Shown here one piece after another: positions 15,228-24,356 of a DNA stretch of 24,988 nt (the first letter of the stretch is position 1; the number at the start of each line of letters is the position of its first letter). The notes beneath the pieces were generated by a model. It was not told the DNA's origin. It searched no databases and saw nothing but the letters and a program-made list of their open reading frames with translations. Source of the stretch: a virus; the IMG/VR virus record IMGVR_UViG_3300025383_000100, positions 1 to 24,988 of that record; one strand, 5' to 3'. A program made the translations under genes and the position numbers.

Positions 15228-15306
15228 AACTGATACCCTTATCTCGCATCACTAGCGGTTTCATCCGTTGGTTTAGTCCTGAGTAAGACTTGTCAAAACT
15301 GCTCAC
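15214..15306 (-). CDS. Possible 30-residue micro-protein
   Basis: GTG at 15306 overlaps the TGA of the upstream gene as GTGA, the same joint used repeatedly in this train. It reads VSSFDKSYSGLNQRMKPLVM followed by RDKGISYGEL. Charge and composition look natural, but there is no recognisable domain. Its existence rests on the stop/start coupling and on filling an otherwise empty gap. Confidence 0.45.
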   Translation of the reverse strand: MSSFDKSYSGLNQRMKPLVMRDKGISYGEL

Positions 15307-15518
15307 TTCAACTCCTTCTCAATCGCTTGGATAGTTGGGCAGGGATAAGGAAGTTGATAAGCACCTTCGTTTGTCCATTGTTCGCAAGCATTACAACCCC
15401 CTGTCGAATCAGGCTTATGCAATTCCACTACCGCTTTAAGTGCGTTTCCCAAACGGCTCGAAACGGAACAAGAATCGTTTAGAGATTTAATTTCAGCCAG
15501 CAATTCATCGTGGTTCAT
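15303..15518 (-). CDS. Cys-rich protein of the CxxC...YPCP family
   Basis: A 71-residue protein: a helical N-terminus (ELLAEIKSLNDSCSVSSRLG) followed by GGCNACEQW and then LPYPCPTIQAIEKELK. The same C-terminal pattern (Cys-x2-Cys, variable loop, aromatic-Pro-Cys-Pro, short helix) occurs in the genes at 17067 and 17696, so they are one family. The pattern is common among small actinophage proteins. It probably binds zinc through three cysteines and one more ligand. The ATG overlaps the upstream TGA (ATGA). Confidence 0.72.
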   Translation of the reverse strand: MNHDELLAEIKSLNDSCSVSSRLGNALKAVVELHKPDSTGGCNACEQWTNEGAYQLPYPCPTIQAIEKELK

Positions 15519-15769
15519 TTCTCACCCCTAGCGATAGCTGCGGCATCTTCAACGGCAATAACCTTTAGTCCTGGCCATGTGCCGTTATCTAAGCGAATAG
15601 CATCCTCATGGATGTAAGCAAGCGTTGATGCCTCAATCTCCCGCGCTATTTGCTCGCCAATCTCAAACCGAAAAGAGCAGTAGCAATAATGCGCCGTTGG
15701 CTTATCAGGGAAGTAGTATGTGATTTTGGTTCCGCAACCCTCGCATGGCAAATCTTTTAGGTAACTCAC
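15515..15769 (-). CDS. Cys-rich protein, paralogue A of the MSYLKDLPC family
   Basis: An 84-residue protein from GTG 15769. Residues 1-46 (starting MSYLKDLPCEGCGT, with AHYCYC near 26-31) match the gene at 16280 at 40 of 46 positions. The four cysteines suggest a zinc ribbon. Residues about 36-46 (EIGEQIAREIE) and the end (DAAAIARGEK) form a second module shared with the gene at 15847; between them is a segment of its own. The start codon is set by the repeated GAGGTGGAGAA-GTG cassette and GTGA coupling to the 25-residue frame upstream. Confidence 0.75.
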   Translation of the reverse strand: MSYLKDLPCEGCGTKITYYFPDKPTAHYCYCSFRFEIGEQIAREIEASTLAYIHEDAIRLDNGTWPGLKVIAVEDAAAIARGEK

Positions 15770-15788
15770 TTCTCCACCTCGCTTTGTT
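15764..15788 (-). repeat. QSEVEK/GTG stop-start cassette, copy 1
   Basis: A 25-base sequence that reads AACAAAGCGAGGTGGAGAAG then TGAGT on the minus strand. It ends the upstream frame as QSEVEK-stop and starts the downstream gene at GTG. The segment AGGTGGAG doubles as ribosome-binding site. Copy 3 (16945-16969) is identical and copy 2 (16523-16547) differs at one base. Confidence 0.85.
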
Positions 15789-15843
15789 TAAAACGAATTT
15801 GCCGGACTTCCTCATCGCTGAGGATTTGCTTAGTTAGGTTCAT
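15766..15843 (-). CDS. 25-residue micro-protein ending in QSEVEK
   Basis: Starts ATG at 15843, three bases after the preceding stop, and reads MNLTKQILSDEEVRQIRFKQ followed by SEVEK. The TGA overlaps the GTG of the next gene. The C-terminal QSEVEK comes from the same repeated cassette that ends the 39- and 141-residue proteins upstream, so the frame may be a shortened descendant of one of those, kept for translational coupling. No domain is visible. Confidence 0.45.
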   Translation of the reverse strand: MNLTKQILSDEEVRQIRFKQSEVEK

Positions 15844-15846
15844 AAC

Positions 15847-16143
15847 TCAACCGCTTTTCGATATAACAACAACGCCTCGAAAGATGTTGTTGTTCGCACT
15901 CATTTTACTTTGTTGCGGTTCGTACTCACCCCTAGCGATAGCGGCGGCATTGGCGCAACTCTTACAAACTACTGGCTCAAAGAATGAAACCGAATTGCCG
16001 TTTACGCCGACAGAAGTGACCGAACCTTTAGCGTGTTCTCGGCGTTTACAATCAGCCTCAATCTCCTGCGCTATCTGCTCGCGGAGTTGTTTAATAGCTT
16101 CAGGAGCAACTATCTCTATTCGGCGCAGTTCTGATTTGCTCAC
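15847..16143 (-). CDS. Mosaic Cys-containing protein with EQIAQEIE/AAAIARGE module
   Basis: A 98-residue protein from GTG 16143. The N-terminus (KSELRRIEIVAPEAIKQL) is unique, then REQIAQEIEADC matches the centre of paralogues A and B, then VVCKSCANAAAIARGE matches their ends. A further 20 residues (EPQQSKMSANNNIFRGVVVI) follow the normal end of the module, so the C-terminus is extended. It sits between the two paralogues and looks like a recombinant with a different N-terminal domain. Confidence 0.65.
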   Translation of the reverse strand: MSKSELRRIEIVAPEAIKQLREQIAQEIEADCKRREHAKGSVTSVGVNGNSVSFFEPVVCKSCANAAAIARGEYEPQQSKMSANNNIFRGVVVISKSG

Positions 16144-16184
16144 TTCTCCACTCCCTTACTGTAGATTTCTCTAGTTGTGCCCAT
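16140..16184 (-). CDS. Possible 14-residue coupling peptide
   Basis: ATG at 16184 reads MGTTREIYSKGVEK and stops in GTGA at the start of the 98-residue gene. The end GTGGAGAAGTGAGC is a diverged form of the QSEVEK cassette (here GVEK-stop). GGAGAG stands upstream of the ATG. So short a frame is weak evidence alone; the cassette resemblance is the support. Confidence 0.3.
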   Translation of the reverse strand: MGTTREIYSKGVEK

Positions 16185-16293
16185 CTAATAGCCACTCTCC
16201 AATTTTCCAAATTATCCAAGTAAATACCGCTCCTCCAGACCAACAGGCGACGGTGAACTTAATCGCCCACCACCAATCATTAAGACTTGGCAT
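16171..16293 (-). CDS. Single-span membrane micro-protein (40 residues, Trp-rich)
   Basis: ATG at 16293 lies inside the end of the upstream gene and gives MPSLNDWWWAIKFTVACWSG, then GAVFTWIIWKIGEWLLDGHN. A hydrophobic stretch of about 20 residues (roughly 10-30) could cross the membrane once, with Trp belts at both ends. AGGGGGC precedes the ATG. It is one of several membrane micro-proteins in this train. Holin-like or membrane-modifying roles are possible for its class but are not shown by the sequence. Confidence 0.6.
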   Translation of the reverse strand: MPSLNDWWWAIKFTVACWSGGAVFTWIIWKIGEWLLDGHN

Positions 16294-16528
16294 CTTGCCC
16301 CCTAGCGATAGCGGCATCCTCTAAGTGGGAACATTCGCCCGTATTGCACTTATTTTTATTGGCAAAAGCCATTTTTATTTCGTGGCAGTTCTCAATCTCC
16401 TGCGCTATCTGCTCGCCAATCTCATACCGAAACTCACAATAGCAATAATGCGCCGTTGGTTTATCGGGGAAGTAATAAGTGCTTTCAGTTCCACAACCCG
16501 CACAGGGCAAATCTTTTAGGTAACTCAC
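16280..16528 (-). CDS. Cys-rich protein, paralogue B of the MSYLKDLPC family
   Basis: An 82-residue protein from GTG 16528. Its first 46 residues match the gene at 15515 at 40 positions, including CAGCGT and AHYCYC. After EIGEQIAQEIE it diverges (NCHEIKMAFANKNKCNTGEC, with two more cysteines) and ends in EDAAIARGQDAKS, the shared module. The DNA match includes the GTG cassette, so a segment containing the end of the previous gene and this gene was duplicated about 760 bases apart. The function is unknown; a zinc-binding role is likely. Confidence 0.75.
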   Translation of the reverse strand: MSYLKDLPCAGCGTESTYYFPDKPTAHYCYCEFRYEIGEQIAQEIENCHEIKMAFANKNKCNTGECSHLEDAAIARGQDAKS

Positions 16529-16547
16529 TTCTCCACCTCACTTTGTT
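16523..16547 (-). repeat. QSEVEK/GTG stop-start cassette, copy 2
   Basis: Same 25 bases as at 15764-15788 except for one G-to-A change on the plus strand (cctca in place of cctcg). It ends the Trp-repeat protein in QSEVEK-stop and starts paralogue B at GTG 16528. Confidence 0.85.
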
Positions 16548-16950
16548 GTAGTCGCTGCCAATCCTCTGCAAATAGTGAGAACTGGCATGATGTCCAAGGT
16601 TGAGTCAGTATCTCGAATTGTTTAGTTGTGATTTTGTCGCGTACAAGAACAGCGAGGTTCGCGTCCCGAGCGGAGTTCCAAGCGTTGTTCCAAGCGGTGT
16701 CCCAAGCGTTGTACCAATCGTTGTACCAATCGTTGTGCCAATCGTTGTACCAATCGTTGTACCAATCGTTGTACCAATCAGTGTACCAAGCAGCGGCGCG
16801 AGCAGTGCCCCAAGCGGTGTGCTGAGCGGTGCCCAGAGCGTTGTACCAAGCGGCTGATAATTCTTTGCGCTTGTCATCATCAAGCGACTTCCATACTTCT
16901 ATGAATTGCTTTGTAGTCATGTAGGTCCTAGTTGCGGTTTCTTCACTCAC
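16525..16950 (-). CDS. Tryptophan tetrapeptide-repeat protein
   Basis: A 141-residue protein. I set the start at GTG 16950 because the conserved cassette (AGGTGGAGAA-GTG) is there; a longer frame from ATG 16977 would read through the cassette. Residues 11-30 (MTTKQFIEVWKSLDDDKRKE) are helical. Trp then occurs at 55, 59, 63, 67, 71, 75, 79, 83, 87 and 91, in units such as WYND, WHND, WYNA and WDTA, preceded by looser AAW units. Every-fourth-residue Trp would form a stripe along a helix. TTKQF recurs at 108-112. The C-terminus has QPWTSCQFSLFAEDW and QSEVEK. Small actinophage proteins with Ala/Trp tetrad repeats are known as a type; this WYND form I do not recognise. The function is unknown. 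Confidence 0.75.
   Translation of the reverse strand: MSEETATRTYMTTKQFIEVWKSLDDDKRKELSAAWYNALGTAQHTAWGTARAAAWYTDWYNDWYNDWYNDWHNDWYNDWYNAWDTAWNNAWNSARDANLAVLVRDKITTKQFEILTQPWTSCQFSLFAEDWQRLQQSEVEK
16669..16848. repeat. Period-12 tandem repeat (15 units)
   Basis: Fifteen consecutive 12-base units on the plus strand with consensus atcgttgtacca in the centre (16717-16776, five units with one change in one unit) and agcg/agca variants on both sides. The minus strand reads tggtacaacgat, encoding WYND. Because 12 is a multiple of 3, several frames stay open on both strands; only the minus frame encoding Trp joins two non-repeat ends with plausible start and stop. Confidence 0.92.
16896..16931. repeat. 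36-base duplicated start region, copy 1
   Basis: This stretch encodes TYMTTKQFIE of the Trp-repeat protein. The same 36 bases with a single mismatch occur at 17427-17462, in a frame that has lost the rest of the protein. Confidence 0.85.
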
Positions 16951-16969
16951 TTCTCCACCTCGCTTTGTT
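16945..16969 (-). repeat. QSEVEK/GTG stop-start cassette, copy 3
   Basis: Identical to copy 1 at 15764-15788. It ends the 39-residue Cys protein in QSEVEK-stop and starts the Trp-repeat protein at GTG 16950. Confidence 0.85.
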
Positions 16970-17066
16970 GTATCCAATTACTTCCTGCTAATTGTTTAGA
17001 AAATTGTTCATAAGTCAGTAGAGAGAGTGGGTGCTTGCATTTGGATGGTCTGTCGCAACACTTCAC
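16947..17066 (-). CDS. 39-residue Cys-rich micro-protein ending in QSEVEK
   Basis: GTG at 17066 directly follows the upstream TAG. The protein reads VKCCDRPSKCKHPLSLLTYE followed by QFSKQLAGSNWIQQSEVEK. CC, C and H near the start could hold a metal. The final QSEVEK and the GTGA joint belong to the repeated cassette. No family is recognised, but adjacency on both sides and natural composition support it. Confidence 0.55.
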   Translation of the reverse strand: MKCCDRPSKCKHPLSLLTYEQFSKQLAGSNWIQQSEVEK

Positions 17067-17315
17067 CTACATCACCTCGTCTAATCGTTGGGCTATGTCT
17101 AGGTAGGTAGGGCAGGGGAAATCAACGCGACAACAATTACATTGATGACTTTCGTATTGGTCGCTTGATTCATAAGGATAAGAACCTGTCGGCAACATTT
17201 CTCCCTCATGCCTCACCAACACATCTCGGTTGGCTAGGCGTAAAGCATTAATCAATTTGTCGCTTGATTCTTGTTCATCAATCCACGCCAAGTATTCCTC
17301 GGTTGTGTGTTTCAT
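17067..17315 (-). CDS. Cys-rich protein of the CxxC...FPCP family
   Basis: An 82-residue protein: helical residues 1-40 (EEYLAWIDEQESSDKLINAL), then HQCNCCRVDFPCPTYLDIAQ. The loop between the Cys pair and the PCP motif is shorter than in its relatives at 15303 and 17696, but order and the trailing helix are the same. The ATG shares ATGA with the stop of the membrane micro-protein upstream. Probable zinc binding, unknown function. Confidence 0.72.
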   Translation of the reverse strand: MKHTTEEYLAWIDEQESSDKLINALRLANRDVLVRHEGEMLPTGSYPYESSDQYESHQCNCCRVDFPCPTYLDIAQRLDEVM

Positions 17316-17416
17316 TTGGAATCTCTATTCCATAAATATCTGCCAATTTGAACCCCTACACATATTCCAAACAAATTCATACCGATTATCGCCAGAGTTA
17401 CGGCTGTCTCTAACAT
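17312..17416 (-). CDS. Single-span membrane micro-protein (34 residues)
   Basis: ATG at 17416 follows an excellent ribosome site (GGGAGAGAAGG). The protein reads MLETAVTLAIIGMNLFGICV, then GVQIGRYLWNRDSK: a membrane span at about 4-24 with a basic C-terminal end, which suggests the C-terminus stays in the cytoplasm. Its TGA overlaps the next ATG (ATGA). Too small to assign; membrane location is the only supported statement. Confidence 0.65.
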   Translation of the reverse strand: MLETAVTLAIIGMNLFGICVGVQIGRYLWNRDSK

Positions 17417-17487
17417 CCTTCTCTCCCTTCTATGAATTGCTTTGTAGTCATGTAGGTCTTAGCATCTGCGTGTTTAGGATTAGTCAT
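17410..17487 (-). CDS. 25-residue truncated copy of the Trp-repeat protein start
   Basis: ATG at 17487 overlaps the upstream TGA. The frame reads MTNPKHADAKTYMTTKQFIE and then GREGC-stop. TYMTTKQFIE is identical to residues 9-18 of the Trp-repeat protein and the DNA matches over 36 bases with one mismatch. After the match the sequence turns into the ribosome site of the next gene. It therefore looks like a decayed duplicate retained as a translated leader. It could equally be read as a pseudogene fragment. Confidence 0.5.
   Translation of the reverse strand: MTNPKHADAKTYMTTKQFIEGREGC
17427..17462. repeat. 36-base duplicated start region, copy 2
   Basis: Matches 16896-16931 with one change (ctag to ttag near the end). 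It lies in the truncated 25-residue frame. Confidence 0.85.
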
Positions 17488-21420: not shown

Positions 21421-22007
21421 AAATTACTGCTTTCGTGACATTGACACTCGCACTCTGCCGTTCCTTGATCTGTTGATTTCTGGCAGACATGGTGGGTATT
21501 GAACTTACACATAAGCGAAAGCCTCATTCTTTTCTCAATCGCCTCGTAGATCATCTCTTGAGTTATCCCGTACTTTGCAAAGTCTTTGATGACCTTATCT
21601 TTCATCTCTGACTTTCGGTTATCCATAACTGCCTCTCTTTCATCTGTCGTCATCCCACCCCAGACCCCATAGTCCTCGTTGCGTGAGGCATACCCTAAGC
21701 ATTGCTTCCAGATAGGGCAAGGGGCGCAGGTGAATCTAAAGACTTCAACACCGATCAGCTTGAGAACTCCGCGCTCCTCGATTTTGTAAAAGAAGTCTGT
21801 GGGCAGGTTTTTACACGCTGCCCTAGACCAATCAATTTCCAGATAATCAGGTTTTGCGTAACTGTCGTTGAGATCGTCTAACTGATCGCGGTCATAAAGT
21901 CCATCTTCATACTGGGTGATTTCATATTTAACCGCCCAGCGATGGATAGTCCTTTGCGATACCCGATAGCGAAGCGCAGCATCCGTTACCGAGATTTTGA
22001 AGGACAT
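21417..22007 (-). CDS. HTH-WhiB fusion transcription factor
   Basis: A 196-residue protein with three parts. Residues 5-47 form a helix-turn-helix of the excisionase/MerR kind (VTDAALRYRVSQRTIHRWAV, then YDRDQLDDLND). Residues 60-125 are a WhiB domain: Cys65, Cys94, Cys97 and Cys103 for the 4Fe-4S cluster (FTCAPCPIWKQC) and GVWGGMT at 114-120. The C-terminus has another Cys/His-rich patch (CKFNTHHVC, then ECECQCHE), possibly zinc-binding. WhiB proteins are redox-linked regulators of actinobacteria and their phages and normally bind sigma factor. Most are 80-130 residues without an N-terminal HTH. It overlaps the Cas4-like gene by 22 bases. Confidence 0.88.
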   Translation of the reverse strand: MSFKISVTDAALRYRVSQRTIHRWAVKYEITQYEDGLYDRDQLDDLNDSYAKPDYLEIDWSRAACKNLPTDFFYKIEERGVLKLIGVEVFRFTCAPCPIWKQCLGYASRNEDYGVWGGMTTDEREAVMDNRKSEMKDKVIKDFAKYGITQEMIYEAIEKRMRLSLMCKFNTHHVCQKSTDQGTAECECQCHESSNL

Positions 22008-22651
22008 CCAAACTCTCCTGTCGCATCGTAGTAATTGCAGAATGAGGCGCAGAATCGGACATCCTTTTCTGGTTCGGGGATTTCTCCGTCACTTACCATC
22101 TGCCTTACCTCTTTAAGCCACGCTAGACCTTCAAGAGCCATTTCGCGGTTATACGGCTCGGTGTGTTCTCTGACATCTTGAGATGAGCCATCTCTAGCGA
22201 TAGCTACGAGAGTGACATTCTCTACTGGTAGCCCGTTTTCCTCGATGAGATAGCCATAGACCTGAACCTGCATCCGTTGTTGAGCCGATGGGAAATAGCG
22301 CAAAGATTTTACCTTTGTTGTTTTCCAGTCCACCACCTGCTTGCGGTTTTTGATGTAAAGATCAACATGACCCCGAAGCCCGTCAATAGAGAACTCCTGC
22401 TCAATCATGAAGTTGTCGCCAAACGGGTCTTCTCGCTTAATACTTTCAGCGATTCCGGCGTGGATAAATGTCCCCATAATCGCGGCGAGAGAGTCAGTTT
22501 CATTGACCTTTGGCTGATCTGTCAGAAATGACCAGACTCGCCTTTTACAGTCGCCGATAGATGAAGGGCCGACATCTTTCTGAATAGAGCGATCACGCTG
22601 AGAGTCATGAGCCGATAACGAGCCGACTAGCATCTTTGCTATTTCGCTCAT
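21986..22651 (-). CDS. Cas4-like PD-(D/E)XK exonuclease
   Basis: A 221-residue RecB-family nuclease. The motifs in order are Cys35 (SSIGDCKRRVW), His64 (GTFIHAGI), Asp97 (LRGHVDLYI), Asp108 and Lys110 (VVDWKTTK), and Gln/Tyr in QRMQVQVYGY. Three further cysteines at 201, 205 and 216 (FCASFCNYYDATGEFGCPS) with Cys35 match the Fe-S set of Cas4/AddB-type nucleases. It probably resects DNA ends for recombination with the annealing protein upstream. No cas genes or CRISPR are nearby. It overlaps its neighbours on both sides. Confidence 0.9.
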   Translation of the reverse strand: MSEIAKMLVGSLSAHDSQRDRSIQKDVGPSSIGDCKRRVWSFLTDQPKVNETDSLAAIMGTFIHAGIAESIKREDPFGDNFMIEQEFSIDGLRGHVDLYIKNRKQVVDWKTTKVKSLRYFPSAQQRMQVQVYGYLIEENGLPVENVTLVAIARDGSSQDVREHTEPYNREMALEGLAWLKEVRQMVSDGEIPEPEKDVRFCASFCNYYDATGEFGCPSKSR

Positions 22652-23545: not shown

Positions 23546-23817
23546 AGGAGCATCCCTTCATCTGCCGAACGCCAGACTATGCAAGCGTTTCCATTTGCAT
23601 TTTGTCGAGTCGTTCCGGTGTCGATGATGAAGCCGTCTTTAACAAGTGAGCCTCGGATTGGTCGAACTGTGTTGCCGTCAAGGTGTAGGTAACGCTCCAC
23701 TTCTTGATCTGTCGCACCTGCGATCCCTCGATTGGTAAAGAACTCGTAAACTTTACGGCGAAGTGTTCCAATGTGAGGTTCAATCTTTGCCCTCGCTTCC
23801 AGTGATGTCTGCTTCAT
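23542..23817 (-). CDS. Winged-helix DNA-binding protein
   Basis: A 91-residue protein. IGTLRRKVYEFFTNRGIAGA leads into TDQEVERYLHLDGNTVRPIR (recognition helix) and GSLVKDGFIIDTGTTRQNAN, whose end is the beta wing, closing with CIVW. This is a compact MarR-like winged helix. It sits second in the operon after the annealing protein and could autoregulate the promoter-leader elements, which is inference. Overlaps by four bases on each side. Confidence 0.78.
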   Translation of the reverse strand: MKQTSLEARAKIEPHIGTLRRKVYEFFTNRGIAGATDQEVERYLHLDGNTVRPIRGSLVKDGFIIDTGTTRQNANGNACIVWRSADEGMLL

Positions 23818-24356
23818 GACAGTTCCTGCACTCTCTTGTTAAGTGCATCTTTAAGAGTTGTCCCTGCCACCTTGATGTCCAAAAAATCTTTTTCTTGATT
23901 CCAAACGATGCGAAGGTTATCTACATCGTTAGTTTCGCCAATAAGTTTTAGGATTCCCTCTAAGCGTTCTAACTGCTCAGGGGTTAGAGTGCGAACAATG
24001 CTCAGAGGTTTGCGTGGCTCTTTTGCATAACGCTCAACCTTCTCCATCTCGTCACGGCTAGGGCGTTTATTGCCTGAGAAAATAAAGTTGGCGAGTGCGC
24101 GACCTATTGATGAGGATTCTGCGTTCTCTAATGCGCTAGTGGTGTTCACCATTCCAACGCCGATGATCTCCTCAGCCATGCCCGTTGTGATTGGGCGATT
24201 GTCTTCTTGATTTGTGTATAGCTCTGCGCGAACGATGAAACTTCTATCGTCACGATGAACTAGGAAAGTGTGGATTCTGCCGTTTGGGAATTGCGCCCAG
24301 AACTTTTTGAGTCTGGATTCAACTGTTTCATAATCGTCTAAGTTGAACTTAGCCAT
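23814..24356 (-). CDS. Probable single-strand annealing / recombination protein
   Basis: A 180-residue protein at the head of the operon. Residues 13-52 are an alpha/beta opening (SRLKKFWAQFPNGRIHTFLV), followed by MVNTTSALENAESSSIGRAL with ANFIF. The Thr-Ser-x-Leu-Glu-Asn...Ser-Ile-Gly-Arg-Ala-Leu-Ala pattern is typical of ERF/Rad52-like phage recombination proteins. The C-terminal 60 residues are helical (LTPEQLERLEGILKLIGETN). Working with the Cas4-like nuclease, SSB and RusA it would form a recombination set. The functional call is moderate. Confidence 0.68.
   Translation of the reverse strand: MAKFNLDDYETVESRLKKFWAQFPNGRIHTFLVHRDDRSFIVRAELYTNQEDNRPITTGMAEEIIGVGMVNTTSALENAESSSIGRALANFIFSGNKRPSRDEMEKVERYAKEPRKPLSIVRTLTPEQLERLEGILKLIGETNDVDNLRIVWNQEKDFLDIKVAGTTLKDALNKRVQELS

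Follow-up and report, generated by a model that had tools for sequence, protein, structure and literature searches.

A long-standing question about phage mosaicism is whether illegitimate joining at random sites produces it or whether exchange takes place at short, conserved boundaries. For lambdoid phages, conserved boundary sequences have been described (Susskind & Botstein 1978; Clark et al. 2001, HK620; as cited in PMC3029335) as short sequences common to mosaic modules and proposed sites of homologous exchange. According to the available text of PMC3029335, such sequences are not identifiable at most mosaic borders. The same text reports that genes 67 and 68 of Island3, among the cluster I mycobacteriophages, have 18 C-terminal residues (~50 bp) in common, which was read as recombination between repeats and described as the first such mycobacteriophage case. 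This is a single event, for which the available text discusses neither a combinatorial set nor a role of the RBS. Another repeated element, the SAS of cluster K phages, is 13 bp long, with 11-19 copies spread across half of the genome and an extended form containing inverted repeats (PMC3203893, available text). Concerning the enzymes, the minimal pairing length of Red-beta is 23-27 bp (PMC3945230), and mosaic exchange via short or imperfect identity, shown in lambda/phi80, is known for Rad52-like phage recombinases (PMC3945230, PMC2327257). ATGA and TGATG overlaps between neighboring genes are associated with termination-reinitiation and coupled translation (PMC6728339).

Here, we analyzed the 24,988-base record of an uncultured virus (the window), in which all called genes lie on the minus strand. 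It encodes a terminase, an exonuclease, RusA and a WhiB protein, while portal-like and capsid-like ORFs were judged by eye. From this gene content, WhiB included, an actinobacterial host is likely. The terminase region gave no blastn match to cultured phages, and the tblastn matches of TerL were all below 60%, so that no named phage genus could be assigned. Small genes, most of which overlap, form an array from ~15.0 to 18.6 kb of the window; they were called with a length-weighted gene caller, a first caller having missed small genes. Pfam and PHROG searches with the ORFs flanking the seams described below returned nothing or families of unknown function, and tblastn of the payload ORFs among the fetched loci found copies only and no other relatives. 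Two repeats were also observed in the array. A 12-nt unit repeated 15 times (16649-16864) encodes the Trp-rich four-residue repeat DWYN in gene 16525-16950, and a 36-nt direct repeat (97%; 16896-16931 and 17427-17462) places the MTTKQFIE start of the same gene a second time just upstream of 17312-17416. The latter is probably the leftover of an exchange.

Table 1. Positions of the seams, small genes and candidate recombination genes in the window.
Feature	Position	Strand	Remarks
Seam copy 1, QSEVEK stop/GTG start	15764..15788	-	ends mini-ORF 15766-15843, starts 15515-15769
Seam copy 2, one mismatch	16523..16547	-	ends 16525-16950, starts 16280-16528; in four-combination set with L014, L005, L105
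Seam copy 3	16945..16969	-	ends 16947-17066, starts 16525-16950
Diverged seam, GVEK stop/GTG	16138..16157	-	ends 14-codon frame 16140-16184, starts 15847-16143
Second seam type, RLDEVM-stop/GTG	17065..17090	-	with copy 3 brackets interchangeable payload ORF 16947-17066
Third seam type, IARGEK-stop/ATG	15515..15538	-	ends 15515-15769, starts 15303-15518
IARGEY form of IARGEK seam, within gene 15847-16143	15919..15942	-	
In-gene seam EQIAQEIE in 16280-16528	16394..16414	-	joins N-module SYLKDLPC, C-module NCHEIKMAF
In-gene seam EQIAQEIE in 15847-16143	16060..16080	-	joins N-module SKSELRR, C-module ADCKRREH
Mini-ORF MNLTKQILSDEEVRQIRFKQSEVEK, 25 aa	15766..15843	-	precedes seam copy 1
Small ORF, SYLKDLPC N-module, Cys-rich, 84 aa, no family	15515..15769	-	
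Paralog of 15515-15769 over first ~45 codons	16280..16528	-	
Small ORF, SKSELRR N-module	15847..16143	-	
Trp-rich 12-nt-repeat ORF, phrog_8332, unknown function	16525..16950	-	
Payload ORF between RLDEVM and SEVEK seams	16947..17066	-	no homolog among fetched loci
PD-(D/E)XK exonuclease, phrog_1674; possible partner of recombination system	21986..22651	-	
phrog_11717 protein, possible single-strand-annealing protein (weak evidence)	23814..24356	-	

A 25-mer, AACAAAGYGAGGTGGAGAAGTGAGT, occurs three times in the small-gene array. Read on the minus strand (AACAAAGCGAGGTGGAGAAGTGAGT), copies 1 and 3 are identical and copy 2 carries T instead of C at one position, while no further site with 8 or fewer mismatches exists in the 24,988 bases. 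The odds of such copies arising by chance are negligible (~3e8 position pairs x 76/4^25 = ~2e-5). In each copy, CAA AGY GAG GTG GAG AAG TGA closes the upstream frame as QSEVEK-stop, the GTG of the next gene overlaps this stop as GTGA, and the Shine-Dalgarno sequence (SD) GAGGTG lies 5 nt upstream. The overlapping stop and start with the SD inside the upstream gene is the arrangement by which a translationally coupled pair is recognized. The original prediction had placed and read the three copies correctly; the diverged fourth form that it proposed is present as well, with a 13-nt core (GTGGAGAAGTGAG, 16139-16151) closing a 14-codon frame (MGTTREIYSKGVEK). The gene that follows this GVEK form in the window is preceded by QSEVEK in contigs L014 and L105 and by QIGEVEK in L010. 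As far as the available text of PMC3203893 allows a comparison, the SAS resembles the seam in that it is repeated, places an SD just upstream of the starts of genes from different families and sometimes contains the upstream stop. Its sequence is unrelated to the seam, however, and gene shuffling at the SAS is not described there. The SAS consensus GGGATAGGAGCCC, located 3-7 bp before starts, is also not found at the seam, which reads AACAAAGYGAGGTGGAGAARTGA.

The genes before and after the element had been said to differ. This holds for all three upstream genes, which are mutually unrelated, but not for the downstream genes of copies 1 and 2, which are paralogs (D2 duplication, 157 nt, 87%) with 11 synonymous and 6 non-synonymous codon differences over codons 1-45; copy 3 alone begins a different downstream gene. 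The paralogous starts behind copies 1 and 2 could point to one recent tandem duplication within this genome. As a full explanation this was rejected and is most improbable, given the unrelated upstream genes and third downstream gene and the yet other genes with which the seam is paired in other genomes. A single recent duplication with all genes homologous was looked for in the relatives, and it is refuted by them.

An exact 23-mer search of IMG/VR retrieved seven other contigs, and a looser 18-mer search retrieved 57 contigs, which split into a freshwater group and a rumen-and-other group. In the freshwater contigs the element sits at a stop/start joint in every case, with CAAAGY kept upstream of the SD except in a few GEVEK variants. 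The joints are of the GTGA, ATGA and TGATG kinds and connect many unrelated gene pairs, with at least nine unrelated upstream and at least seven unrelated downstream contexts. In the rumen-and-other group, sharing is limited to the 18-mer itself. When bacterial and archaeal genomes totalling 257 Gb were scanned, one match was obtained (L163, a Poseidoniales MAG) against ~0.5 expected by chance, and a cellular origin of the element was rejected at this chance level.

Recurrence at unrelated joints could also be explained by convergence, whereby each joint independently reached the same optimal combination of SD and overlap. This explanation is accepted for the rumen and other contigs, in which 45 sites with AGYGAGGTGGAGAAATGA at stop/start joints cover 32 x 34 unrelated contexts, exact runs have a median of 19 nt (the pattern itself being 18) and only 4 of 990 pairs are one-sided. 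Across many phages in this set (L091-L139), AGYGAGGTGGAGAAATGA stands at joints of unrelated genes, apparently through convergence on SD + ATGA. For the freshwater joints convergence was rejected and is very unlikely: 18 of 78 pairs are one-sided, the runs reach 23-29 nt, the codons outside the SD are identical (CAA AGY ... AAG), and the four-combination set described next contradicts it.

Of the 190 pairs of freshwater joints compared, 25 show homology downstream only, 6 upstream only and 4 both upstream and downstream; the remaining 155 lack it on either side. Homology ends abruptly. Between L005 and L105, identity is 100% over more than 100 nt up to the seam and then drops to ~25%, i.e. unrelated sequence; the window and L004 at seam copy 2 share 95-100% identity up to the seam and are unrelated beyond it. 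Furthermore, the four combinations of the upstream genes ELRTQ and QRLQ with the downstream genes SYLK and SKSE are all present, in L005, L105, the window and L014. In this set, flanks of the same gene match at 88-100% identity and those of different genes at 28-38%, with 96-100% for the element itself. Unless the element was inserted independently several times, all four can have arisen only by recombination at or inside it. The gene combinations of the window itself have no replicate in a second contig. A short identical border sequence, unrelated flanks and a switch of homology exactly there, the marks of a conserved boundary, coincide at the seam. At the level of sequence comparison, these alignments demonstrate an exchange of different genes precisely at the seam, which bears out the idea of a recombinogenic junction where genes are shuffled. 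We therefore favor, with a probability of about 0.74, the reading that the 25-mer is a conserved boundary sequence at which short-homology recombination shuffles the small-gene cassettes of freshwater actinophages.

The freshwater sequences come exclusively from metagenome contigs, in which chimeras would form at shared repeats, and the arrangements might instead be assembly errors joined at the repeated 25-mer. We consider this very improbable, because identical arrangements were recovered in independent samples (L003, L006 and L007; L155, L159 and L160; L166 and L167) and open frames continue through the joints. The final word sizes used in assembly are usually longer than 25 nt, which also counts against chimeras.

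Compared with the lambdoid boundaries in the available text of PMC3029335, the boundary here consists of stop, SD and start, is reused within one genome and between many gene pairs, and occurs in four combinations. The seam unites features of boundary sequences with SAS-like features and adds combinatorial evidence; it is a strong case of a known idea, not a new kind of element. With a defined 25-nt seam, four combinations and controls, the boundary model can be tested and measured directly.

In ~90 related or seam-bearing contigs, 506 abrupt homology breakpoints were mapped. The share lying no more than 10 nt from a gene end was 25.0% for left and 17.7% for right breakpoints, compared with 5.2% and 4.8% for randomly shifted positions, a 4-5x enrichment, although most of the 506 lie away from gene ends. 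Among 2865 pairs of gene-end sites with 26-mers at least 80% similar, 333 had unrelated flanks on both sides; at fixed mid-gene control positions this was the case in just 6-51 per 1121-2382 pairs. Ranked by contexts on both sides, SEVEK came first, and further gene ends with SD-like runs in the ranking were IARGEK, AIEKELL, RLDEVM and KVGA.

The majority of breakpoints away from gene ends, together with the many left breakpoints that fall no more than 10 nt from a stop and for which a long shared element need not be assumed, are in line with the Hendrix/Hatfull view, in which illegitimate recombination occurs everywhere, selection lets joints at gene ends survive, and the shared sequence is simply the RBS brought along by the downstream gene. 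For the seam this account is unlikely. One and the same element stands before at least seven unrelated downstream genes and after at least nine unrelated upstream genes, it extends ~8-10 nt upstream of the SD (ACAACAAAG), more than an RBS requires, and four combinations are all found across it.

Besides SEVEK, the other seams of the window (Table 1) behave similarly. The RLDEVM seam recurs in L003, L005, L008, L009, L092, L105 and others with differing payloads, and the slot between RLDEVM and SEVEK holds entirely different payloads of 32-42 codons in the window, L003, L005, L008 and L009. IARGEK joins 10 upstream with 11 downstream contexts. The in-gene seam EQIAREIE connects 7 N-modules with 12 C-modules in 17 observed combinations, including a full four-combination set (N0/N2 x C5/C9). 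With both flanks unrelated, the exact shared run has a median of 25 nt (23-29) for SEVEK, 31 for IARGEK, 35 for RLDEVM and 24 for EQIA, so that the medians of 24-35 nt are at or above the Red-beta minimum. In addition, an 18-mer within 17067-17315 (CCAACCGAGATGTGTTGG, encoding NRDVLVRH) occurs with numerous unrelated flanks (8 x 11 contexts) and is perhaps another in-gene seam.

The original prediction had also called the junction possibly mobile. The element is indeed repeated, directional and found at the same kind of place every time, as would befit a site-specific recombination site or an integron-like mobile mini-element. This description did not hold up: sequence-unrelated seams without a common motif behave alike, one of them (EQIAREIE) lies inside genes without any stop or start, the freshwater element has zero copies outside joints, and no recombinase gene is tied to the seam. 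With neither an occurrence outside this one context nor an associated recombinase, a mobile element was rejected and is scarcely credible.

Under the preferred reading of a conserved boundary, the last 24 nt of the upstream gene carry the RBS of the next gene, whose start is overlapped by the stop. As the same seam stands between many unrelated gene pairs, co-infecting genomes have 23-29 identical bases in common there, and recombination at this short identity would swap everything to one side of the seam. Every recombinant would retain a complete RBS and stop/start, and selection for these working signals may keep the seam in register. The IARGEK and RLDEVM ends, which also bear an RBS, and the in-gene EQIAREIE would act alike, by which whole mini-genes and half-proteins would be reassorted. 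For annealing, 25 nt would suffice, and the agent may be a phage annealing protein with an exonuclease, or host enzymes; annealing at the seam would then parallel the relaxed recombination of the Rad52-like enzymes. The PD-(D/E)XK exonuclease of the window is a clear assignment. A candidate for the annealing protein is the phrog_11717 protein, whose low-confidence structure model (pLDDT 62) gave weak viral structure matches named ERF/Rad52/SAK3 and no significant match in a PDB search. It could possibly represent a new single-strand-annealing family, and it was found in only 1 of 11 other seam-bearing records. The protein is conserved, with the motif ETSAIGRALA in relatives.

The carriers of the seam are diverse. 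Six seam-bearing records (28-104 kb) gave no match to the TerL of the window in a search that found controls at 63-100% identity, and four encode another terminase above the Pfam cut-off (nine records searched). WhiB is encoded in all nine seam-bearing records tested. Together, this shows that the cassettes are common to actinophages with different packaging genes. It is a tentative proposal, which we hold with less than even confidence, that otherwise unrelated freshwater actinophages draw on a common pool of mini-genes and half-genes, recombined at a few standard seams (SEVEK, IARGEK, RLDEVM and the in-gene EQIAREIE). Such a pool would be integron-like, yet without a dedicated recombinase, and would serve small, probably host-interaction, proteins. 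In phages of lake actinobacteria, the in-gene seam further allows small proteins, whose role against hosts is a guess, to be assembled combinatorially. The 25-mer itself acts like a standard connector for rebuilding the small-gene region of lake viruses. As a caution, common C-termini or N-termini in small phage ORFs need not imply homology elsewhere.

Finally, the seam resembles termination-reinitiation sites (PMC6728339) in its GTGA, ATGA or TGATG overlaps and its SD, the overlaps here being read from the sequence. From these overlaps with the SD, and from the L155 and L162 contigs, we infer that the stop/start overlap would couple translation. In both contigs, the mini-ORF upstream of the SKSELRR gene has lost 5 nt, so that the seam is read as STKRGG instead of QSEVEK, and a GAG-to-GAT change (G-to-T) creates a TAA directly before the same GTG. 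In this one lineage, the change is suggestive of a seam peptide that may be dispensable and of a stop adjoining the start that tends to be retained. A related observation concerns the mini-ORF MNLTKRILSDEEVRQI in L154 (677-724), which there has a different end, followed by a kinase-like gene, in place of the SEVEK seam.
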